Source: a virus. Taken from it: a DNA stretch of 40,318 bases. The position numbers and the translations under genes were made by a program. Below the pieces are notes generated by a model that was not told the DNA's origin, searched no databases, and was given only the letters and a program-made list of their open reading frames with translations. Within the stretch, counting starts at the first letter, position 1, and each line of letters begins with the position of its first letter. Below are positions 4,035 through 38,983 of the stretch, in pieces. The DNA is taken from positions 1-40,318 of IMG/VR virus record IMGVR_UViG_3300049215_000768. One strand, given 5' to 3'.

Positions 4035-4637
4035 ATGGCGGCCTGTCCAAAGTGCAAAACCGGGCTGCTCGTGGATGAAGTCCATGAGGACCGCTGCATC
4101 AACTGCGGCAATCGCATCCAGAAGACCCGGCCCGCTCTGACCGCGTCTCGTCCGGATCTCGAGGAGGCGGAGGAAGACCACCGGCAGGCGCGGGTTCGGG
4201 CCCCTCGGCCAGCGGCGATACGGCCGGTCAGGAACCCCCGAACGGAGCCCGCGAAAGAAAGGACGCCTACCATGGCGATCGGCAAGACCTGTACGAATCC
4301 ACGTTGCGAGGATGACGCCGCCGAGAATTCGGTGTACTGCCCCAAGCATCGAGATCAAAAGAAACGGGCGAATGACCGGCAGCGGTTGAAACTCACGGGG
4401 CGGCCCATAGCTGCCAAGCCCCAGACAGCTCGTCCTCCGAAAGCCCCGCCTCGACCGGCAGATCCGGTCGCAGCAGCGTCCTCCGACGGTCCGGCTGCCC
4501 CAGCCCAGGCTTCGACGCTTACGCCGATCTCCCTCAATGGCAAGACGGTGCGACAGATCACGATCGAGGAGATCGATAATGTGATCGCCCACCTGCAACA
4601 GACGCGCGCGATGATGGTCGCCTTTCCGGTGTTGTAG
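4035..4637 (+). CDS. Two-part zinc-finger protein
   Basis: 200 residues. The N-terminus carries a zinc ribbon (C4, C7, C21, C24). A second Cys/His cluster begins at residue 80: CTNPRC followed by YCPKHR, then a basic stretch. A Pro/Ala-rich linker leads to a C-terminal helix (ITIEEIDNVIAHLQQTR). An internal ATG at 4272 with AAAGGA upstream could give a separate 121-residue product, so this may be two fused or overlapping genes. It fits tightly between the RDF-like and nuclease genes. Probably a nucleic-acid-binding accessory protein; the family is not recognised. Confidence 0.6.
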   Translation: MAACPKCKTGLLVDEVHEDRCINCGNRIQKTRPALTASRPDLEEAEEDHRQARVRAPRPAAIRPVRNPRTEPAKERTPTMAIGKTCTNPRCEDDAAENSVYCPKHRDQKKRANDRQRLKLTGRPIAAKPQTARPPKAPPRPADPVAAASSDGPAAPAQASTLTPISLNGKTVRQITIEEIDNVIAHLQQTRAMMVAFPVL

Positions 4638-5072
4638 ATGGCGAAGACCCAGACGAATTATGGCGAGCTCGATCTCGAAGAGGTGGCCCGTGGCCGGGCC
4701 AGGGTGGTGTGGCCCCGGGATTCAGCAAAGGCGGTGCCGGCGCCGACACCGAGGGGTCCCGGGCCTCACTACCGCTCACAGCTCGAGCGGGACTACGCGA
4801 CGCATTTGAATTGCCTCATGTTTGTCGGAGAAATCAAAAGCCATCGCTTTGAAGCCATGCGGTTCTTGCTGGCTAAGCGGACTAGTTATTGCCCAGATTT
4901 CCTGGTGGTGACGCGCGACGGACGAATTGAGTTTCACGAGGTCAAAGGAGCGCATGCCTGGGAAGATTCAATCGTGAAGCTGAAAGTGGTTGCGGCAATG
5001 TTCCCCATGTTCCGGTTTGTCCTGGTTACCCGCCCGGATGGGGCGTGGCTCTGGAAGGAGGTTCCACAATGA
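4638..5072 (+). CDS. DUF1064-like phage endonuclease (PD-(D/E)XK fold)
   Basis: 144 residues, starting immediately after the previous stop. The sequence has YRSQLERDYATHL with E50, then YCPDFLV with P86-D87, and EFHEVKG with E101 and K103. This is the PD...ExK catalytic pattern of small phage nucleases such as DUF1064 (Holliday-junction or VRR-NUC-like). It likely cuts branched or replicating phage DNA. It is the second restriction-fold nuclease in this operon. The stop overlaps the ParB start by ATGA. Confidence 0.8.
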   Translation: MAKTQTNYGELDLEEVARGRARVVWPRDSAKAVPAPTPRGPGPHYRSQLERDYATHLNCLMFVGEIKSHRFEAMRFLLAKRTSYCPDFLVVTRDGRIEFHEVKGAHAWEDSIVKLKVVAAMFPMFRFVLVTRPDGAWLWKEVPQ

Positions 5073-21738: not shown

Positions 21739-22292
21739 TGAACGACGGGGCCACAGTCGTCATCTATAACCTCGAGGAATTCCAGCAGGCGCTGACCGAT
21801 GCGCCCAAGGAAGTGTTCACGTTCGTCAAGCAGGAGATGGGCCGTGGCGTGAATCGCTTTCGCAAGACCTTCATCCGCGAGCGCTTGCGCGGGAGACCCG
21901 GCATTCTCTGGACGAATACAAAACAGGTCGGGGGCAATGTGAAGACGTCGCTGACCGGGACAGACCTGGCCGACCTCACCGCCAAGGTCAAGCTGTCGCG
22001 CTTTCTGCAGGTCCATGAACTCGGAGCGACGATTACGCCCAAGAAGGGGCCCTATCTTTTTCTCCGTAAGACGGCAGGCAACCGGTTCCAAGGCAATCCG
22101 GGAAAGATTTTCGCCAAGGTCAAATCCGTCACGATTCCGGCCCGGCTCGGCTTTGTCACGCTGTGGGATCGAGAGAAAGGTGCGATCGTCACCAAGGTGG
22201 CGGCCGCCATTGATCGCGGCTTCCAAGTGGCGATGGAGCGGCGGGTGAAGGCCGTGAGCCGGGCCCTCCTTGCCGGCATCGAGGCGCTATGA
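21738..22292 (+). CDS. Tail completion protein (gpZ / HK97 gp10-like)
   Basis: 184 residues from the ATG overlapping the previous stop (TAATG). The segment LQVHELGATITPKKGPYLFL is typical of the gpZ and HK97 gp10 families, which finish the tail end that meets the head. The N-terminal helix (EEFQQALTDAPKEVFTFVKQ) and C-terminal helix (RRVKAVSRALLAGIEAL) also fit. It lies directly before the tail-terminator gene as in lambda. Confidence 0.8.
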   Translation: MNDGATVVIYNLEEFQQALTDAPKEVFTFVKQEMGRGVNRFRKTFIRERLRGRPGILWTNTKQVGGNVKTSLTGTDLADLTAKVKLSRFLQVHELGATITPKKGPYLFLRKTAGNRFQGNPGKIFAKVKSVTIPARLGFVTLWDREKGAIVTKVAAAIDRGFQVAMERRVKAVSRALLAGIEAL

Positions 22293-22777
22293 CAGACGCG
22301 GCCTTGCCCATTCGCGAGCAGATTATGCAGGCCGTCCAGGCTACGCTGACCGGCATTACCAAAGGCAATGGCTATCGGTTCACGATCAAGTCCGTGCAGC
22401 GAACGCGGAGTACGGGGCAGACCAAGTTGGAGACGCCCCTGATTCTGATCCAGGAGGGGTTGGATACACCGGCCGAAGGGCCATTAGCCGGGTCGAGCTC
22501 GGCCACCACGCGACACCTGGAAATTACGTTAGGCGTCCAGATCGCCCAGGACGCGGAGGGGGATGCGCGGGAAGGGGACACGGTGTGCAATCTCCTGCGC
22601 GCGGATATTCAAAAGGCCATGGCGGCCGATTCGAGCTTTGGCGAGCTGGCCCTCGATAGCCGGGAAACCGGGGCGCGGGAAATTGTGTTTACCGAAGAAC
22701 GCGCGGATCTCATGTTCGAACTGGACTATGACATTCATTATCGCCACCTCCGCACTGATCCGTCAGTGGCGGTGTAA
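22289..22777 (+). CDS. Tail terminator (gpU-like)
   Basis: 162 residues, ATGA overlap with the gene before. LPIREQIMQAVQATLTGI at the N-terminus, then TRHLEITLGVQIAQ and DTVCNLLRADIQKAM, followed by the C-terminal ELDYDIHYRHLRTDP strand, match the gpU-type minor tail protein that stops tail-tube growth. Position before the tube gene agrees. Sequence similarity in this family is low, so gene order carries part of the call. Confidence 0.75.
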   Translation: MTDAALPIREQIMQAVQATLTGITKGNGYRFTIKSVQRTRSTGQTKLETPLILIQEGLDTPAEGPLAGSSSATTRHLEITLGVQIAQDAEGDAREGDTVCNLLRADIQKAMAADSSFGELALDSRETGAREIVFTEERADLMFELDYDIHYRHLRTDPSVAV

Positions 22778-22789
22778 GGAGACCTAACC

Positions 22790-24229
22790 ATGCCCACTCG
22801 CTACTTTCTGGCGCGCCAAGCCGTGCTGGCTATTGCCGTCGAAGCCGTGGAGGCCACTGCGGAATCGCTGATCGGGTCGGATGCGAATCTCCTCGTCTAT
22901 AACGTCCAATACGAACCGACACTGAATCAGTTTGAGCGGAAGCCGCTCCTGCCGGATATGTCCCCCCTTGGGCCCATCGCCGGCAAACGCATGGGGAAAT
23001 TTACCTTCCAGACGGAACTCAAGGGGTCGGGCTATGTGGGCGTCGCTCCAGCGCTTGGCAGAATCCTCCGCGCCTGCAAAGCCGCCGAGACGATCAGTCA
23101 GACCGTCGGCGCGCTGAACCAAACGACCGCGGGCAGCACGGACAATAAGCTCCGCATTGGTGCGACTGACAATATTGAGCTCTCGGCCGCCTTCACCTCA
23201 GGGGGCAGCGGCGAGACGCCGAATCTGGCTCGGCTCATCCTGAAGCGGGGCGGGACGATTCCCGCCGGGAAGAAAGTGTGGGTGGAGATCCAGACGGATG
23301 CGACGGGCGATCCGTCCGGCACCGCCGTCACCGATGGCGTCTCAAACACGGTCGAAGCAGCCGGCATTCATACCGCCTATGAAACCATCACCTTTGTATT
23401 TCCCACGGCGCCCACCCTGACGGCATCCACCGCCTACCATCTCGTCTTGAAGGGCGACTATACCCCGGATAGCACGAACGTCATCTACTGGCGGTCGAAT
23501 ACCGTGGGCTCGGGGGGCAATGGTGAGATTAAAGACGCGTCCTGGGGCGACGTGGCCACGAGCGATTTCGAGGCGGTGCTTGCGGCAGGAATCAGCGTGA
23601 CCTATACCCCGACCCCCAGTCCGCCCTCCGTCACCATGGGGTTCTTTGCGGTGCCGTCCTCGGGCAGTTCGCTCAACATGATCGTCAGCGGCTCGCGCGG
23701 CAAATGGAAATTTTCCCCGAATGTCGGCGATCCGGGCATGCTGGACTGCGAGTTCAATGGGAACTATGAAAGCATTGTCGATGGCACGGCGCCGTCGCCC
23801 GTGGGCCTGGAATCGACGAAGCCCCCGGCGTTTCTCAGTACCTCGCTCACCTGCCATGGCGACAGCGGGCACAAGATTTCCAAGTTCGGGATGGATCAAG
23901 GCCATACCCTCACGATGCGGACGGACCCCGTTACGGCCAGCGGCTATTTCTCCTGCATCCATACCGACACGCAACCGACCTTTTCCTTTGATCCGGAGGT
24001 GCGCCTGGTGGCTGACCATGACTACTTCGGCAAAATGATGGCCAATGCCGAAGCGGCCCTCTCCTTTGTCCTGGGCAGTACGCCCGGCAACATCATCACC
24101 GTCAGTGCACCGAAGGCCCAATACATTCAAATCAAGCCCGCTGATCGAGATGGCCTCAAGATCCTCAACATTGATGGCCGTCTCAACCGCTCAGTCGGGA
24201 ACGACGAATGGAGCGTGGCCTTCACATGA
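22790..24229 (+). CDS. Major tail tube protein with inserted domain
   Basis: 479 residues, about twice a minimal tube protein. The tube-domain halves are ~1-110 (RYFLARQAVLAIAVE, PTLNQFERKPLL, MGKFTFQTELKGSG) and ~300-479 (FSPNVGDPGMLDCEFNGNYE, FDPEVRLVADHDYFG, MANAEAALSFVLG). Residues ~115-300 form an insert rich in Gly, Thr and Ser (VGALNQTTAGSTD, ASTAYHLVLKGDYTPD), probably a beta domain on the tube surface. GGAGA lies 9 bases upstream of the ATG. The stop overlaps the chaperone start by ATGA. Confidence 0.85.
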   Translation: MPTRYFLARQAVLAIAVEAVEATAESLIGSDANLLVYNVQYEPTLNQFERKPLLPDMSPLGPIAGKRMGKFTFQTELKGSGYVGVAPALGRILRACKAAETISQTVGALNQTTAGSTDNKLRIGATDNIELSAAFTSGGSGETPNLARLILKRGGTIPAGKKVWVEIQTDATGDPSGTAVTDGVSNTVEAAGIHTAYETITFVFPTAPTLTASTAYHLVLKGDYTPDSTNVIYWRSNTVGSGGNGEIKDASWGDVATSDFEAVLAAGISVTYTPTPSPPSVTMGFFAVPSSGSSLNMIVSGSRGKWKFSPNVGDPGMLDCEFNGNYESIVDGTAPSPVGLESTKPPAFLSTSLTCHGDSGHKISKFGMDQGHTLTMRTDPVTASGYFSCIHTDTQPTFSFDPEVRLVADHDYFGKMMANAEAALSFVLGSTPGNIITVSAPKAQYIQIKPADRDGLKILNIDGRLNRSVGNDEWSVAFT

Positions 24230-24678
24230 ACGACGCCGAGCGAAAAACCTACGAGATCGGGGGCCGACGGTTCTATCAGGAACCGCTTATTGCCATTCAA
24301 GACAAATGGATCTGGCCGATCATTAAGGACCTCATGTTTCGCGATATGACCGGGACGGAATTGCTTGATCTCGCGATGGAGCGCGGCACGGAAATCGCCA
24401 GCATCGTCCTGATCGAAGAAGGGCAGACGCCGGCCGATAAGAAGAAAGCCGGCCTTGTGGGCGTGATGCAATTGCAGGATTGGCTGGACTCACGCGTCTG
24501 TGAATTCTCGGAGGTGATCGCCGATTTTTTCGTCTCCGGCCAGCTGCAACGACTGGCCCTGCGCATGGCGAAAGTATTGCCCAGGCCATCCCAGATGACT
24601 GGGTTGATCGTGCCGTCCTCATTCTCAGCGGCGGAGACCTCCAACGTGCCGAATGGATCTGGGGTCACGTCCGGCTGA
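24226..24678 (+). CDS. Tail assembly chaperone, short form (gpG-like)
   Basis: 150 residues if read without frameshift, starting at the ATG that overlaps the tube gene stop. Features fitting a G-type chaperone are position between tube and tape-measure genes, acidic/helical character (IIKDLMFRDMTGTELLDLAM) and presence of a slippery T TTT TTC at codons 101-102. It coats the tape measure protein and recruits tube subunits. The short form ends at 24678. An ATG at 24208 would overlap the tube gene more and lacks support. Confidence 0.85.
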   Translation: MNDAERKTYEIGGRRFYQEPLIAIQDKWIWPIIKDLMFRDMTGTELLDLAMERGTEIASIVLIEEGQTPADKKKAGLVGVMQLQDWLDSRVCEFSEVIADFFVSGQLQRLALRMAKVLPRPSQMTGLIVPSSFSAAETSNVPNGSGVTSG

Positions 24679-24908
24679 GCGAGGCGGAGCCGTATCTGCA
24701 TCGGCAGATCGAGCGCCGGGCGGCCGATCTCGCGATTCTCGGGTTTTGTGGCGTGAAGTTGCCCTGGCTGGAACCGACCGCCGCGTCGGCCATCCCGCAG
24801 GATCAACCGACCGGTCAAGCCTGCGGCGGCAAACTCATTCAGACCTGTACCGGCTTTTTCGGGGACCAACTCCCCATCGCGTGTCGTACGTGTCCCGGAC
24901 CGCAGTGA
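24226..24908 (+). CDS. Tail assembly chaperone, frameshift form (gpGT-like)
   Basis: A -1 shift at 24525-24531 joins the first 102 codons of the short form to an open frame running from 24531 to TGA at 24906-24908 (125 residues), giving about 227 residues. The T part includes AIPDDWVDRAVLILSGGD, EWIWGHVRLSEAEPYLHRQI and LAILGFCGVKLPWLEP, which look like ordinary protein with no ATG start or ribosome site of its own. In lambda, GT binds the tube through T and the tape measure through G. The next gene starts 7 bases after this stop. Confidence 0.88.
24525..24558 (+). promoter_or_regulatory. Programmed -1 frameshift signal
   Basis: The heptamer T TTT TTC occupies 24525-24531 in the correct zero frame (GAT TTT TTC), the standard X XXY YYZ pattern. 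Six bases later a perfect 6-bp stem, GGCCAG at 24538-24543 with CTGGCC at 24553-24558 around a 9-base loop, supplies a stimulatory hairpin. Both parts are in the positions expected for efficient -1 slippage, and the -1 frame is open to 24908. Lambda uses GGGAAAG at the equivalent place; the sequence differs here but the logic is the same. Confidence 0.88.
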
Positions 24909-24914
24909 GGCCCC

Positions 24915-27866
24915 ATGGCTGACCAACAAGAACTCGCCGTCGTCCTCAAGCTCGTCGCCGATCAGTTCAAGAGTGAGCTGAAGAACTCGCAAGGGCTGCT
25001 CGGGGATTTCAACAAGTTTATTTCTGACTGGAAAACGCAACTCTCCGCAGCCTCCGGGGCTCTCCTGGCCATCGCGAAATCCACCGCGAACTATGGCGAA
25101 GAACTCGTCAAGGCCTCCCAGAAAACGGGCATTGCCGTCGAAAGCCTGGCCGGACTCCAGTATGCGGCGAAACTCTCGGACCTCACAAATGAACAGCTCG
25201 TCACGTCCCTGATCAAGCTGTCGAAGAACCTCCAAGACACGGCGCTCGGCACGGGGGATGCGCAACAGGCGTTCCGCGCGCTGGGGATTGCCATTACCGG
25301 CTCCAATGGTCAACTGCGGCCGACGGGCGATGTGCTTGGCGATATCGCGGCCAAGTTTGCCTCCTTCCAGGATGGTCCCGCCAAGGCCGCCTTGGCCGTG
25401 CGGCTCTTTGGGCGCTCGGGGGCCGACCTCATCCCCTTCCTCAATAACGGTCGGGATGGGCTGAAGGAACTGCAGGCAGAGGCCGAGAAATTCGGCCTCG
25501 TGATGTCGGATAAGGATGCGCGCGCTGCCAATGAATTCAACGACAACCTAAAACGGCTGACTGCCTCCATGACGGGAATGAAAAATGAGCTGGGCGCGGC
25601 CCTCATTCCCGGCCTGAATGATCTCCTCGACACCATCCTCAAGCTCAAGGGGCCAGGGGGAGACAGTCTTCTCGGCAGCATCTTTAAAGCGGCTGGCATG
25701 CAACTCGTGGCCTTCAATGTACTTGTACGCGAAGTCATTGCCAATCTCGTCGCCGTGCGCGATCTGGCCAGGGCGGCACTGCCTGGCGCGACCCTGTCAC
25801 CTCCCAATCCCGCCGTGTTGCCCGGGGCAGCCCTGCGAGGAGCCGACCTCAGCAAAGAAGATCGGGCGATGCTGGAGAAATTGGGCATGGCGCCGATTGC
25901 CACAAAACCAGCGAGCGTGGACGATATTCTCGCCAAGCTCAAGGCGGAGGTAGATGCTGCGGAAAAGGCGGGATCGAAGCGGCTCTTTGATCTGAATCAT
26001 CCCTTAGCAGCAGCCGCCCTGTCGCGCCAGGAGCAGGACGACAAGAAAGCTGGTCAGAAGCCGCCGCCCATCGTCACCGATCCCGAAGCCCAAGCCAAAG
26101 CCTTAGAGGCGCAGAAAAAGACCCGCTTGCAGGCCGCCCAAGATCTCCTGGCCATTCAGCAAAGCGAACTCAAAACCAGTGCGGCGTTGAACGACCAGCA
26201 ATTCGCCCAACGGGAGATCGATGAGCAGAGCTATTTGAACGTCAAGCAGAACCTGGCCGATATCGGCGTAGCGATGCAGGAACGGGCGGCCATGGCCGAA
26301 CTCGCCATTCTGCAGGATGTGAAAACCAAGCGCTTCGCCATTGGCTTTAAATCGAAAGAGGAGCAGTCCGAATTCGAAAGCAAATATACCGAGGAGGTCG
26401 GAAAAACCACGGCGAAGTTGCGGGTCCTGACGGGACAGCAGACAGCGGATGCGATTAAGGCCGACACCGAGAAAACCCAGAAGACCGAGCAACTCGAACA
26501 GCAACGCGGTCAGGCCATTCAACAGAACCTGTCGGCCATCTTCGCCATCAATCAGGATTTTCAGAATAAGGATCTCGACGGCGAAATCCGCCTGACTCAA
26601 GCCAAGCTCGCATTGATCCAGCAGTTGGGTGATGCCTACGGCGGCTATCTGACGACGCGGGAAACCGAACTGCGGGCCACATTGGCCAAGATGGCCCAGG
26701 AGGAAGATTCTGGCGATGCCGCGGTGCAGGCGCAACGGGCGCAACGAATGCGGGATCTCAACGCCGAACTGAAGCAAATCGAGGCAGACCGGGGCAAGGC
26801 CTCCTATAGCCGCGAGTCGGATACCAAAGCCCTCCTGGCGCTGCTCGAACAACGCAAGGCGCTGAAAGCCCTAGAGACCGTGCCCGGTACGGAGAAAAGC
26901 GAAGCGGCTATCAGGGCTGAAGGGGATGCGAAAACCCTGGCCGCGCGCAGCCAGGGGCGCACGAAGGAATTACAGGATATTGCCACCCTGGCCACGGCCC
27001 AAGTCGCCGCCGATGACGCGAACCTCGCCTCCTACGAGCAGCTCTCGCGGGATCGACTGGCCGCCCTGCAGGCGGAATTGGAAGCCCGTCTGAGTCAGGA
27101 GGGCCTGACGGAGAACCAGATCACCGCGATTAAGCTAGAAGGGTACGCCAAAATCGCCAGGGAACAGCGGCGCATCAACGCGCCCGTCACGGAAGGCCTC
27201 CTGGAGGGGCTGCAGTCCTACGTCTACAACTCGCAAAACCTCTTTTCGCTCTCCGTCGATATGGCCCGGCAGACCGCGCAGGCCATGTCGCAGGGCTTCC
27301 AGCAATTCTTCTTCGATTACTTCCAGGGCAAGATCACGAGCCTGAAGGACGCCATGACGTCACTGGTCACGTTTGTGCGGCAGATCATGAGCCAGGTGCT
27401 CGCGGCTATGGCGACGAGTTCGATTGTCACGCCGCTCGCGAGTGGCTTACCGGGGCTGCTCGGTGGATTGCTTGGCAGTCCTTCAACATCCATGACCACT
27501 CCATCCTCTACCGTTGGCCCCCTTGTCACGGCCCCATCCCTGAATCATGGCGGGATGCTGATGCGCCGGTATGCCTTCGGGGGCAACGTCCTGCCGTTTA
27601 CGAACGGCGATTCGGTGCCCGCGATGCTGACGCCGGGTGAATTTGTGGTCCCCGCGTCTCGGGTGCCCGCCTTGGAGCGGTTCATTCAGGGACAGACGGC
27701 GAACGAGGGGATGGGCGGCAATGTGCAAGTCAATGTGTATAACGCCCCAGCTGGCACGTCCGCCAAAGTGGACACCCGACGGGACAAACGCGACATGATT
27801 GTCGATGTCGTGTTGCAGGATCTGCAACACGGCGGCCCGATTCGAAACGCCATGAAGGCGGCCTGA
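24915..27866 (+). CDS. Tail tape measure protein (gpH-like)
   Basis: 983 residues, the second longest gene. The N-terminus (LVADQFKSELKNSQGLLGDF, AASGALLAIAKSTANYGEEL) and FGRSGADLIPFLNNG near residue 170 are standard tape-measure blocks; the middle ~370-740 is mostly helical and Gln/Lys/Glu-rich; the C-terminal third has a hydrophobic patch (SIVTPLASGLPGLLGGLLG) and FTNGDSVPAMLTPGEFVVPA, common near the end of such proteins. It sets tail length, implying roughly 140-150 nm at 1.5 angstroms per residue (rule of thumb). The stop overlaps the next start (TGATG). Confidence 0.93.
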   Translation: MADQQELAVVLKLVADQFKSELKNSQGLLGDFNKFISDWKTQLSAASGALLAIAKSTANYGEELVKASQKTGIAVESLAGLQYAAKLSDLTNEQLVTSLIKLSKNLQDTALGTGDAQQAFRALGIAITGSNGQLRPTGDVLGDIAAKFASFQDGPAKAALAVRLFGRSGADLIPFLNNGRDGLKELQAEAEKFGLVMSDKDARAANEFNDNLKRLTASMTGMKNELGAALIPGLNDLLDTILKLKGPGGDSLLGSIFKAAGMQLVAFNVLVREVIANLVAVRDLARAALPGATLSPPNPAVLPGAALRGADLSKEDRAMLEKLGMAPIATKPASVDDILAKLKAEVDAAEKAGSKRLFDLNHPLAAAALSRQEQDDKKAGQKPPPIVTDPEAQAKALEAQKKTRLQAAQDLLAIQQSELKTSAALNDQQFAQREIDEQSYLNVKQNLADIGVAMQERAAMAELAILQDVKTKRFAIGFKSKEEQSEFESKYTEEVGKTTAKLRVLTGQQTADAIKADTEKTQKTEQLEQQRGQAIQQNLSAIFAINQDFQNKDLDGEIRLTQAKLALIQQLGDAYGGYLTTRETELRATLAKMAQEEDSGDAAVQAQRAQRMRDLNAELKQIEADRGKASYSRESDTKALLALLEQRKALKALETVPGTEKSEAAIRAEGDAKTLAARSQGRTKELQDIATLATAQVAADDANLASYEQLSRDRLAALQAELEARLSQEGLTENQITAIKLEGYAKIAREQRRINAPVTEGLLEGLQSYVYNSQNLFSLSVDMARQTAQAMSQGFQQFFFDYFQGKITSLKDAMTSLVTFVRQIMSQVLAAMATSSIVTPLASGLPGLLGGLLGSPSTSMTTPSSTVGPLVTAPSLNHGGMLMRRYAFGGNVLPFTNGDSVPAMLTPGEFVVPASRVPALERFIQGQTANEGMGGNVQVNVYNAPAGTSAKVDTRRDKRDMIVDVVLQDLQHGGPIRNAMKAA

Positions 27867-36475: not shown

Positions 36476-36992
36476 TGGCGTCATCGCAGACACGACGTTG
36501 ACGATTACCACACGACTGACCAATGTCGCCGGCTATGCGTGGTGTGCGGTTTCCCCAACTGGGGACATGGATTGTCAGGCTGCGGCGGTCAGCTCCAGCC
36601 CGACGGCCGGCCTCACTCCGCAAGCGCCGACCCCCAGTCCCAGCAGCTCTACGGCATTGCAGAGCGAGGCCCTCAAAGCCTTACCGAAACTCGATGAGAT
36701 GAATGGGCGCTTCAATGCGGGCGGCATTCTATTTTCATGCCCGACTGGGGCGATCACATGCTATGTCGTCGCGAGTGCAGACAGAGGGGCGTCGTATCTG
36801 ACCAACCAGCCCCTAAACGCCTTCCCGGTCGATGCAACAGGACGCAAGACGCCGGTCCAACAACCCATTCAGCCAGGAACCGTCAAGCCAGATCTGACGA
36901 TGCCCCAAGGCGAACCGTACTGCTTAATGGCCTATGCCGTGGATGCGAGCGGGAAGGCGTTTGGGAGAACGGACGGGGTCTGTATCTATTAG
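36408..36992 (+). CDS. Exported protein with signal peptide (194 aa)
   Basis: GAGGAGGAGG lies just upstream of three clustered in-frame ATGs (36405, 36408, 36414); 36408 or 36414 gives the best spacing. The N-terminus has Arg residues (RRIAR), then a hydrophobic stretch (ASIWCLLALTLADGVIA) and a likely signal peptidase site before DTTLTI. The mature part has a Ser/Pro/Thr-rich segment, several cysteines (YAWCAV, LFSCPTGAITC, YCLMAYA, GVCIY) that could form disulfides, and no recognised domain. Host-exported phage proteins are often morons that alter the cell surface or block superinfection. Confidence 0.7.
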   Translation: MNMRRIARLTASIWCLLALTLADGVIADTTLTITTRLTNVAGYAWCAVSPTGDMDCQAAAVSSSPTAGLTPQAPTPSPSSSTALQSEALKALPKLDEMNGRFNAGGILFSCPTGAITCYVVASADRGASYLTNQPLNAFPVDATGRKTPVQQPIQPGTVKPDLTMPQGEPYCLMAYAVDASGKAFGRTDGVCIY

Positions 36993-37012
36993 CACCGTGG
37001 GGCGGACCGACG

Positions 37013-38983
37013 ATGTATCTCACACTCAATCAATATCGGTGGGACGGCTACTACGATGCGAAAGCGCAGCGCCTCTCATTTCTGACACCGGCCTGGCGTT
37101 TGCCAGATGGCGCCCATATAGGGATCGATCTGCGAGCTCCAGCGCTACGAGCGATCGCGGGAGGGAAGTCCAAGGGCTATGCCTGCTTCTTGTCTGAGGT
37201 TGAGAGTAAGGCAGGTCTCCTGCTCTCGGATGATCCGGCAGGTGCGCTATCAGGAAAACAACGAGATCAGATCGCCCAACTGTTGGGCGTCGGAATAGGA
37301 TCCACGACGGTGCTCGACATGCTCTGGGAACTGTTCACGGTTCATGCCGATGGCAAGACCCTCACCGCGCCGCTGATTCCCAAGCCCGGCCTCGTCGTGG
37401 AACTGTGCGTCGGGCCTGTGCGTAAGCAGGTCGTCTCGGAAAAGGGGGGCGTGGGGTGGGACGCCTTACAGGCCACGCTCCAGGAGCAATATGCTCAGAC
37501 CAAAGCGAGTAACCCAGTGGCCGCGCAGAAGTTGTTGAGTAAATGGTTAGAAGAGTACCCGGATCCCTCCATTCATTTCTCCGACTTCATTCCCGCTGGC
37601 CTCCCGATTATCGAGCCGGAGGACCATGACACCATCAACGTAGACGATTTCAATCGGGCGAATGCGCCCACGCTGGGCACGGCCAGTGGCGGCTGGACAT
37701 GGACGACGACTGGCGGCAATGTCGCCATTTCCGGCAATCAGGCGCTGTTTGCCCATACGGGAAGCGCCTCAGATCGAGCGTGCAGATGTGGCGCCACTGT
37801 CAGTAGTAATAATAACTATGCTAAGGGAGTCGTGAGCGGCCGCAATGGCGTGCTCACCGGCCCCCTGGCTCGTTATAACAGCACCTACGATTCAGGCTAT
37901 ATCTGGTACTGGCATACCTATCTTCCGGGTCGCATCGCCTATGAAGTCGTGTCGGGAGTTGCGACGGAGTTGGGACGCACGGGTGACCCGGGAGGGTCAT
38001 ATCCTAACGGCATGACATTTGAGCTTGATTGCAGCGGCACCACGATTACATGCCGCGATGGAGGTGCGTGGGGCACCTTTACCGCTACGGGCGTTTCCGC
38101 TGGTGTCTACGGCGGTTGGTACATGTATACCGATGTTGCCGATGACGCGACGCTCGATGATTTCGAATTTGGCGATCTGGGGGGCGGCGGCACAACATAC
38201 ACCTATACCGGATCCGGCGGCCTGACCTTCGCGGGGACTGCTCAGCTCGCCGCGAGCTGCTCCGTCGTGGGCACGGGTGGGGTGACCTTCTCCGGAACCG
38301 CCCTGCGACGTGCCTCCTGGTCCATCTCCGGGGTCGGCGGTCTGACCCTGTCGGGGAGCAGTCCGCGGATCGTCACCGCCGCGATTGTCCCCAGCGGAGG
38401 CATCACCTTCGCGGGCACCAGCCCTCGCGCGTGTACGGTCCAACCCTCCGTGGGCGGCGGTCTGGCGTTCTCGGGAACGGCTCCGCGTACGTTCACTGTC
38501 GTCTGCCAACCGAGCGGTGGAGTGTCCTTCGTCGGCAGTGCGTCCGTACGCATTACCTGGGCGATCGCCGGCCGCGGCGGGGTCGTGTTCGGGGGATCGG
38601 GCGGCTCGGCGGAGTTCACCTATATCGGCTCCGGCGGTTTGGCGTTGGCGGGAAGTGCTCCACGGTCGTTCACCGCCTCTATGCATCCGAGCGGCGGCCT
38701 GGCATTCGGCGGTACGGCCGCGAAGGCGATCACGTCCGCCTACCGCGGGGGTGGAGGGCTCAGCCTGTCCGGGACCGCCGCGCGTGTGGCGAGCCTGTGT
38801 CCGGCCGTCAGCGGCGGGATGCACTTTGCTGGGACGGCGGAGACCGCCTTCGTCCCCATGATCAGCACGCCGCTTGAGATCTTCCTGGCCGCGGCGCGGA
38901 CGCGCGTCTTTCTGGCGGACCACCGGATATCCATCTTTCTCGCCGATCGACGCACCACCACGTTCCTTGCGGGGACACGATGA
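37013..38983 (+). CDS. Adhesin-like protein: lectin-like domain plus glycine repeats
   Basis: 656 residues from ATG at 37013; an upstream in-frame reading from 36737 runs through the exported-protein gene and is rejected. Residues ~1-200 (TLNQYRWDGYYDAKAQRLSF, LDMLWELFTVHADGKTLTAP) are unrecognised. Residues ~205-395 resemble a LamG/ConA-like fold (VDDFNRANAPTLGTASGGWT, the start of such domains). Residues ~402-614 are eleven 20-residue repeats with GG[LVI].[FL].G. The end (EIFLAAARTRVFLADHRISI and two more FLA units) repeats about every 11 residues. Likely a tail fibre or receptor-binding part. Confidence 0.75.
   Translation: MYLTLNQYRWDGYYDAKAQRLSFLTPAWRLPDGAHIGIDLRAPALRAIAGGKSKGYACFLSEVESKAGLLLSDDPAGALSGKQRDQIAQLLGVGIGSTTVLDMLWELFTVHADGKTLTAPLIPKPGLVVELCVGPVRKQVVSEKGGVGWDALQATLQEQYAQTKASNPVAAQKLLSKWLEEYPDPSIHFSDFIPAGLPIIEPEDHDTINVDDFNRANAPTLGTASGGWTWTTTGGNVAISGNQALFAHTGSASDRACRCGATVSSNNNYAKGVVSGRNGVLTGPLARYNSTYDSGYIWYWHTYLPGRIAYEVVSGVATELGRTGDPGGSYPNGMTFELDCSGTTITCRDGGAWGTFTATGVSAGVYGGWYMYTDVADDATLDDFEFGDLGGGGTTYTYTGSGGLTFAGTAQLAASCSVVGTGGVTFSGTALRRASWSISGVGGLTLSGSSPRIVTAAIVPSGGITFAGTSPRACTVQPSVGGGLAFSGTAPRTFTVVCQPSGGVSFVGSASVRITWAIAGRGGVVFGGSGGSAEFTYIGSGGLALAGSAPRSFTASMHPSGGLAFGGTAAKAITSAYRGGGGLSLSGTAARVASLCPAVSGGMHFAGTAETAFVPMISTPLEIFLAAARTRVFLADHRISIFLADRRTTTFLAGTR
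38216..38854 (+). repeat. 60-bp / 20-residue glycine repeat array (11 units)
   Basis: Units begin at the double glycine codons at 38216 and recur every 60 bases (one unit is 57) to 38813. The protein pattern is GG, hydrophobic, x, F/L, x, G, S/T, then about 12 variable residues. DNA identity between units is modest, so the repeat is old or under diversifying selection rather than freshly copied. Even spacing suggests a beta or polyglycine structural repeat. Confidence 0.9.

Follow-up and report, generated by a model that had tools for sequence, protein, structure and literature searches.

A conserved T_TTT_TTY slippery site and a very probable programmed -1 frameshift in a predicted tail assembly chaperone gene (lambda G/GT type) of uncultured phages

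The window analyzed here, 40,318 nt in length (positions 1 to 40,318 of IMG/VR virus record IMGVR_UViG_3300049215_000768), contains two overlapping reading frames that meet at a T_TTT_TTC heptamer and very probably constitute a tail assembly chaperone gene of the lambda G/GT type, expressed through a programmed -1 ribosomal frameshift. The original prediction of a -1 frameshift in a tail chaperone gene was thus supported, by the conservation of the heptamer and of the -1 frame, by a lambda-type gene order and by a chaperone-like predicted fold. What the DNA shows directly is the pair of frames, the conservation of the heptamer, the selection acting on the -1 frame and the order of the genes. 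The frameshift gene, its signals and the flanking tail genes all lie on the + strand.

The 0-frame ORF (nt 24226–24678), whose ATG at 24226 overlaps the stop codon of the major tail protein gene, encodes a short G-like product of 150 aa, consisting of an N domain of 102 aa up to the heptamer followed by a tail of 48 codons. The heptamer, located at nt 24525–24531, forms the last seven letters of GAT TTT TTC, codons 100 to 102 in the frame of this ATG, which is the phase that a tandem -1 slip requires and the frame claimed for it in the original prediction. The -1 frame has 125 open codons, from CGT at 24531 to the TGA at 24906–24908 that lies six bases before the tape measure ATG, and encodes the T domain (nt 24531–24908), which the frameshift would join to the N domain as a fusion of 227 aa. 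As had also been claimed, this frame lacks a start of its own: no ATG, GTG or TTG was found in it upstream of the conserved T core, either in the window or in the relatives L042, L046, L050, L051 and L056. The stop codon of the 0-frame (nt 24676–24678) falls within the T core.

Codon statistics learned from 19 other genes of the window assigned the N half to frame 0 (+57 bits versus -70 bits for the -1 frame) and the region 3′ of the heptamer to the -1 frame (+20 bits versus -45 bits for frame 0). No further in-frame T6 heptamer was present in the 19 other window genes tested. Among the predicted tryptic peptides, VCEFSEVIADFFR would be found only in the fusion and VCEFSEVIADFFVSGQLQR only in the 0-frame product.

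Relatives of the gene were reached through its neighbor. Direct scans with the N half or the T half alone retrieved no relative, searches of genomes and phage records with the fused protein gave no confirmed relative, and the tape measure profile A2 found none in genomes. An alignment of two tape measure N-termini led to 16 IMG/VR loci, four of which carried homologues of the T half, and a T-half alignment then retrieved 22 IMG/VR contigs representing 17 distinct relatives. When further assemblies of the site were sought, with the length of the T run allowed to vary, none was retrieved, and therefore no second assembly of the exact site in the window was seen. Contig L004 (5.5 kb), from a different sample, carries a portal gene whose product is 100% identical to the window's portal protein, which means that the same phage, or one very near to it, has been observed twice.

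The half-proteins N and T stand in the same -1 relation in 22 of 22 contigs, and the heptamer at their junction is T_TTT_TTC or T_TTT_TTT in all relatives, that is, T_TTT_TTY at the homologous position in 17 of 17. The codon supplying the first T varies, being Asp GAT in eight sequences, His CAT in seven, Arg CGT in two and Ala GCT in one, with T as its last base throughout, and TTT is used for the first Phe codon in every case, in contigs with a GC content of 57–65%; L056 has three Phe codons and a run of nine T. When each locus was assessed against its own codon usage, the chance of the heptamer multiplied over the 18 sequences was about 10^-15, a figure that treats the loci as independent and overstates the significance because they share ancestry. 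Most pairs of sequences are less than 75% identical in DNA around the site. Substitutions peak at third codon positions, in frame 0 across the N half and in the -1 frame across the T core, and the -1 ORF, homologous across the relatives, is under selection at the protein level. Judged from these comparisons, the heptamer at the junction is not a chance occurrence. The original prediction had named homologues lacking both the heptamer and the -1 frame as counter-evidence; the 17 distinct relatives all have both. It had also proposed an alignment of related phages for heptamer and hairpin, in which the heptamer was conserved and the hairpin was not, no common structure being present beyond close relatives.

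Three other origins of the two frames were considered. Homopolymer runs are prone to indel errors, and the window by itself could not separate a frameshift from a single continuous gene split by a real indel, or by misreading or misassembly of the T run. However, the same run and the same -1 relation recur in 22 contigs at 37–55% protein identity, with T_TTT_TTY always in phase, and its conservation in all relatives despite the varied preceding codon excludes a sequencing indel and indicates a programmed -1 frameshift; the error or indel reading is refuted by the relatives and almost certainly false. The second frame could instead arise from transcriptional slippage on the T run, which reaches eight T in L051 (nt 4251–4258) and nine in L056 (nt 4938–4946), and such slippage has been reported for longer runs, Tn with n>8 (PMC3711429). 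Yet the runs are mostly of only six or seven T, and their phase is always that required for a tandem tRNA slip. Transcriptional slippage might contribute in L056 and L051, but as the source of the second frame in place of ribosomal slippage it is highly improbable.

The T domain might also be a separate gene, translated by internal initiation or by re-initiation, and a strong Shine-Dalgarno (SD)-like sequence does lie upstream of the site. This sequence is not positioned ahead of any start in the T frame, which in the window and five relatives has none of the three start codons before the core, and re-initiation after the 0-frame stop would truncate T because that stop sits inside the core. 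Both forms of this explanation were accordingly rejected, there being very little chance that either applies.

With a programmed -1 ribosomal frameshift as the preferred reading, we infer from the sequences that slippage occurs, and likewise its efficiency, its stimulator and the chaperone role of the products. Most ribosomes would keep the frame and produce the G-like protein, while a minority would slip at U_UUU_UUC with tRNA-Phe in both the P and A sites, the pairing with UUU-UUC being exchanged for UUU-UUU, and would continue to the GT-like fusion. Anti-Shine-Dalgarno pairing 10 nt upstream would probably aid the slip. In E. coli, heptamers made up entirely of pyrimidines shift comparatively readily (PMC4066793). 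If the proteins work as their lambda counterparts do, the N domain shared by both products may bind the tape measure protein, and recruitment of the tail tube protein may fall to the T domain; the ratio of the two products would then matter.

The candidate for this pairing is the internal SD-like sequence GGAGGTGATC at nt 24510–24519, overlooked in the original prediction, whose GGAGG core ends 10 nt before the heptamer. Its duplex energy of -15.7 kcal/mol was the strongest among all + strand 10-mers in the window, as calculated against an E. coli-like 16S tail. The 10-nt spacing fits the 9–14 nt published for SD stimulators of -1 frameshifting (PMC5009743). With distances counted directly from the sequences, this spacing was found only in the window; in 10 relatives a strong SD-like site lies 19 nt upstream and is favored by the codon choice there, and 7 have none. 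The SD is thus a good candidate in the window and not a conserved requirement.

A possible stem-loop was located at nt 24538–24558, with GGCCAG (24538–24543) and CTGGCC (24553–24558) enclosing a loop of 9 nt. The perfect 6-bp hairpin starting 6 nt after the heptamer, as originally described, is therefore present, but, as a proposed stimulatory element, it was not shown to exceed chance: in window genes, 2.0% of codon positions are followed by a comparable stem, the region is no more stable than shuffled sequences (folding z about -0.5 in the window), and the downstream RNA of the 18 sequences showed no excess stability (mean z = -0.16). Similar arms, with loops of differing length, occur in the close relatives L036, L037 and L039, and the other relatives share no common structure. 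This recurrence adds little weight because the first arm also encodes the conserved residues RLRPA. The internal SD is probably the better stimulator candidate of the two.

The genes around the site are arranged as in lambda. A tail terminator gene (nt 22289–22777; PHROG tail terminator, E-value 5e-9) in the position of lambda U is followed by a major tail protein or tail tube gene (nt 22790–24229; tblastn matches to annotated tail tube proteins) in that of lambda V, by the frameshift gene, and by a tape measure gene (nt 24915–27866; PHROG tape measure, E-value 2e-54) in that of lambda H, an order equal to U-V-G/T-H. A homologue of the major tail protein gene lies upstream in every relative and one of the tail terminator gene in most, and the order of a gp21714 homologue, tail terminator, major tail protein and frameshift gene was kept in most relatives with enough upstream DNA. 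The tape measure gene directly follows the frameshift gene in L046 and L055, while some relatives have intervening genes (in L045 it lies 4.1 kb further). No significant sequence match connects the gene to a described chaperone family, and its membership is hence based on the arrangement of the genes, on the architecture with two products and on a weak similarity of fold; a programmed -1 frameshift in a tail chaperone gene is strongly supported, and the gene is a probable chaperone of the lambda G/GT kind.

Some features of the neighboring genes were also recorded. The tblastn matches of the window's major tail protein in nearly all relatives are split by about 160 extra residues (aa ~103–260), which may be an inserted surface domain; the flanks of this segment are nearly adjacent in those relatives. 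Over its first 250 residues (nt 24915–25700), the tape measure protein is about 49–60% identical to its counterparts in the phages L022–L035, which have repeat-rich, fiber-like genes directly 5′ of the tape measure gene. A gene with many tandem repeats of the GSGGLTFAGTA type occupies nt 36737–38983 of the window, and a similar repeat gene lies 5′ of the tape measure gene in L021. A GTG-rich tandem repeat of about 12 nt, open in two frames, is located at the start of the window (nt 4–130).

The N half shares 19–45% identity with those of the 17 relatives and the T domain 38–54%. Pfam, PHROGs and PDB sequence searches gave no significant match for either half, nor did tblastn of the T domain of a relative against cultured phages and plasmids. 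The AlphaFold model of the N domain, based on an 18-sequence alignment, predicted a beta hairpin followed by helices (pLDDT 89, pTM 0.81). In Foldseek comparisons with viral models (BFVD) this model matched N15 GT (probability 0.90, TM 0.46) and several annotated tail assembly chaperones, at E-values of 0.02 or weaker; there was no match at an E-value of 0.001, and the structure search of the PDB was empty. The T domain was modeled with low confidence (pTM 0.43), and searching with its fold was uninformative. Near its C-terminus the T domain has a cysteine motif, C-x(7)-C-x11-C-x2-C, encoded at nt 24822–24905 and corresponding to C100, C108, C120 and C123 of alignment A6. Kept in 17 of 17 relatives, the motif is possibly a metal-binding (zinc) site.

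Similarities to known systems are of several kinds. As in lambda G/GT, the gene is situated between those for the major tail protein and the tape measure protein and would yield a short 0-frame product and a -1 fusion, and the -1 frames, counted from the heptamer, are of similar length (146 codons in lambda and 127 in the window), whereas the heptamer is GGGAAAG in lambda and TTTTTTC in the window. In phage P2, E and E + E′ likewise have a heptamer with a U run, TTTTTTG, and a -1 shift before the tape measure gene, but the -1 stretch is 59 codons long and the operon is that of a contractile tail. The P2 shift site is T6G, with T7G or T7C in related prophages (PMC3931495); the observation that the heptamer of the window consists of U plus C was correct, but an all-U shift site in such a gene position is not new. 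N15 GT has an equal gene order and the weak match to the predicted N-domain fold, but its annotated slippery sequence is GGAAAAG, and an hhalign comparison with the lambda-like N15 G gave a probability below 1%, with no detectable sequence similarity. In the E. coli dnaX and IS911-type signals, too, an internal SD that precedes the shift site serves as a stimulator, although in another gene and with another heptamer, and the shift product of dnaX is the shorter one.

The number of zero-frame codons 3′ of the site is 5 in lambda, 6 in P2, 48 in the window and 35 to 94 in the family, and the two products therefore differ over the whole C-terminal half. The 0-frame is unconstrained in most of its overlap with the T domain. 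In the L040-type clade, which has nine members, the tail looks constrained over its first 16 or so residues, and the 0-frame is open for longer than would be expected from the T protein sequence (each p 0.02–0.10; combined 4e-5 if independent), whereas the window itself showed no excess openness (p 0.30). The longer 0-frame and the tail constraint in this clade are suggestive only. A mid-gene shift site giving two functional C-terminal arms, with a 0-frame tail overprinted on T for up to 94 codons and itself maintained, is a tentative and rather unlikely interpretation.

Frameshifting in such a gene position is classical; what is new is the unrecognized family, its cysteine-rich T domain and the 35 to 94 zero-frame codons. 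Neither half is picked up by the usual profile libraries, so an annotation program that does not handle frameshifts would report the short product, drop the T domain and give the gene no name. These findings add a protein family unrelated in sequence, with members all from uncultured phages, to the phages that make two forms of the tail chaperone by frameshifting, and the 18 naturally occurring versions of one U_UUU_UUY signal, some with an internal SD and some lacking it, provide a set for comparing stimulators.
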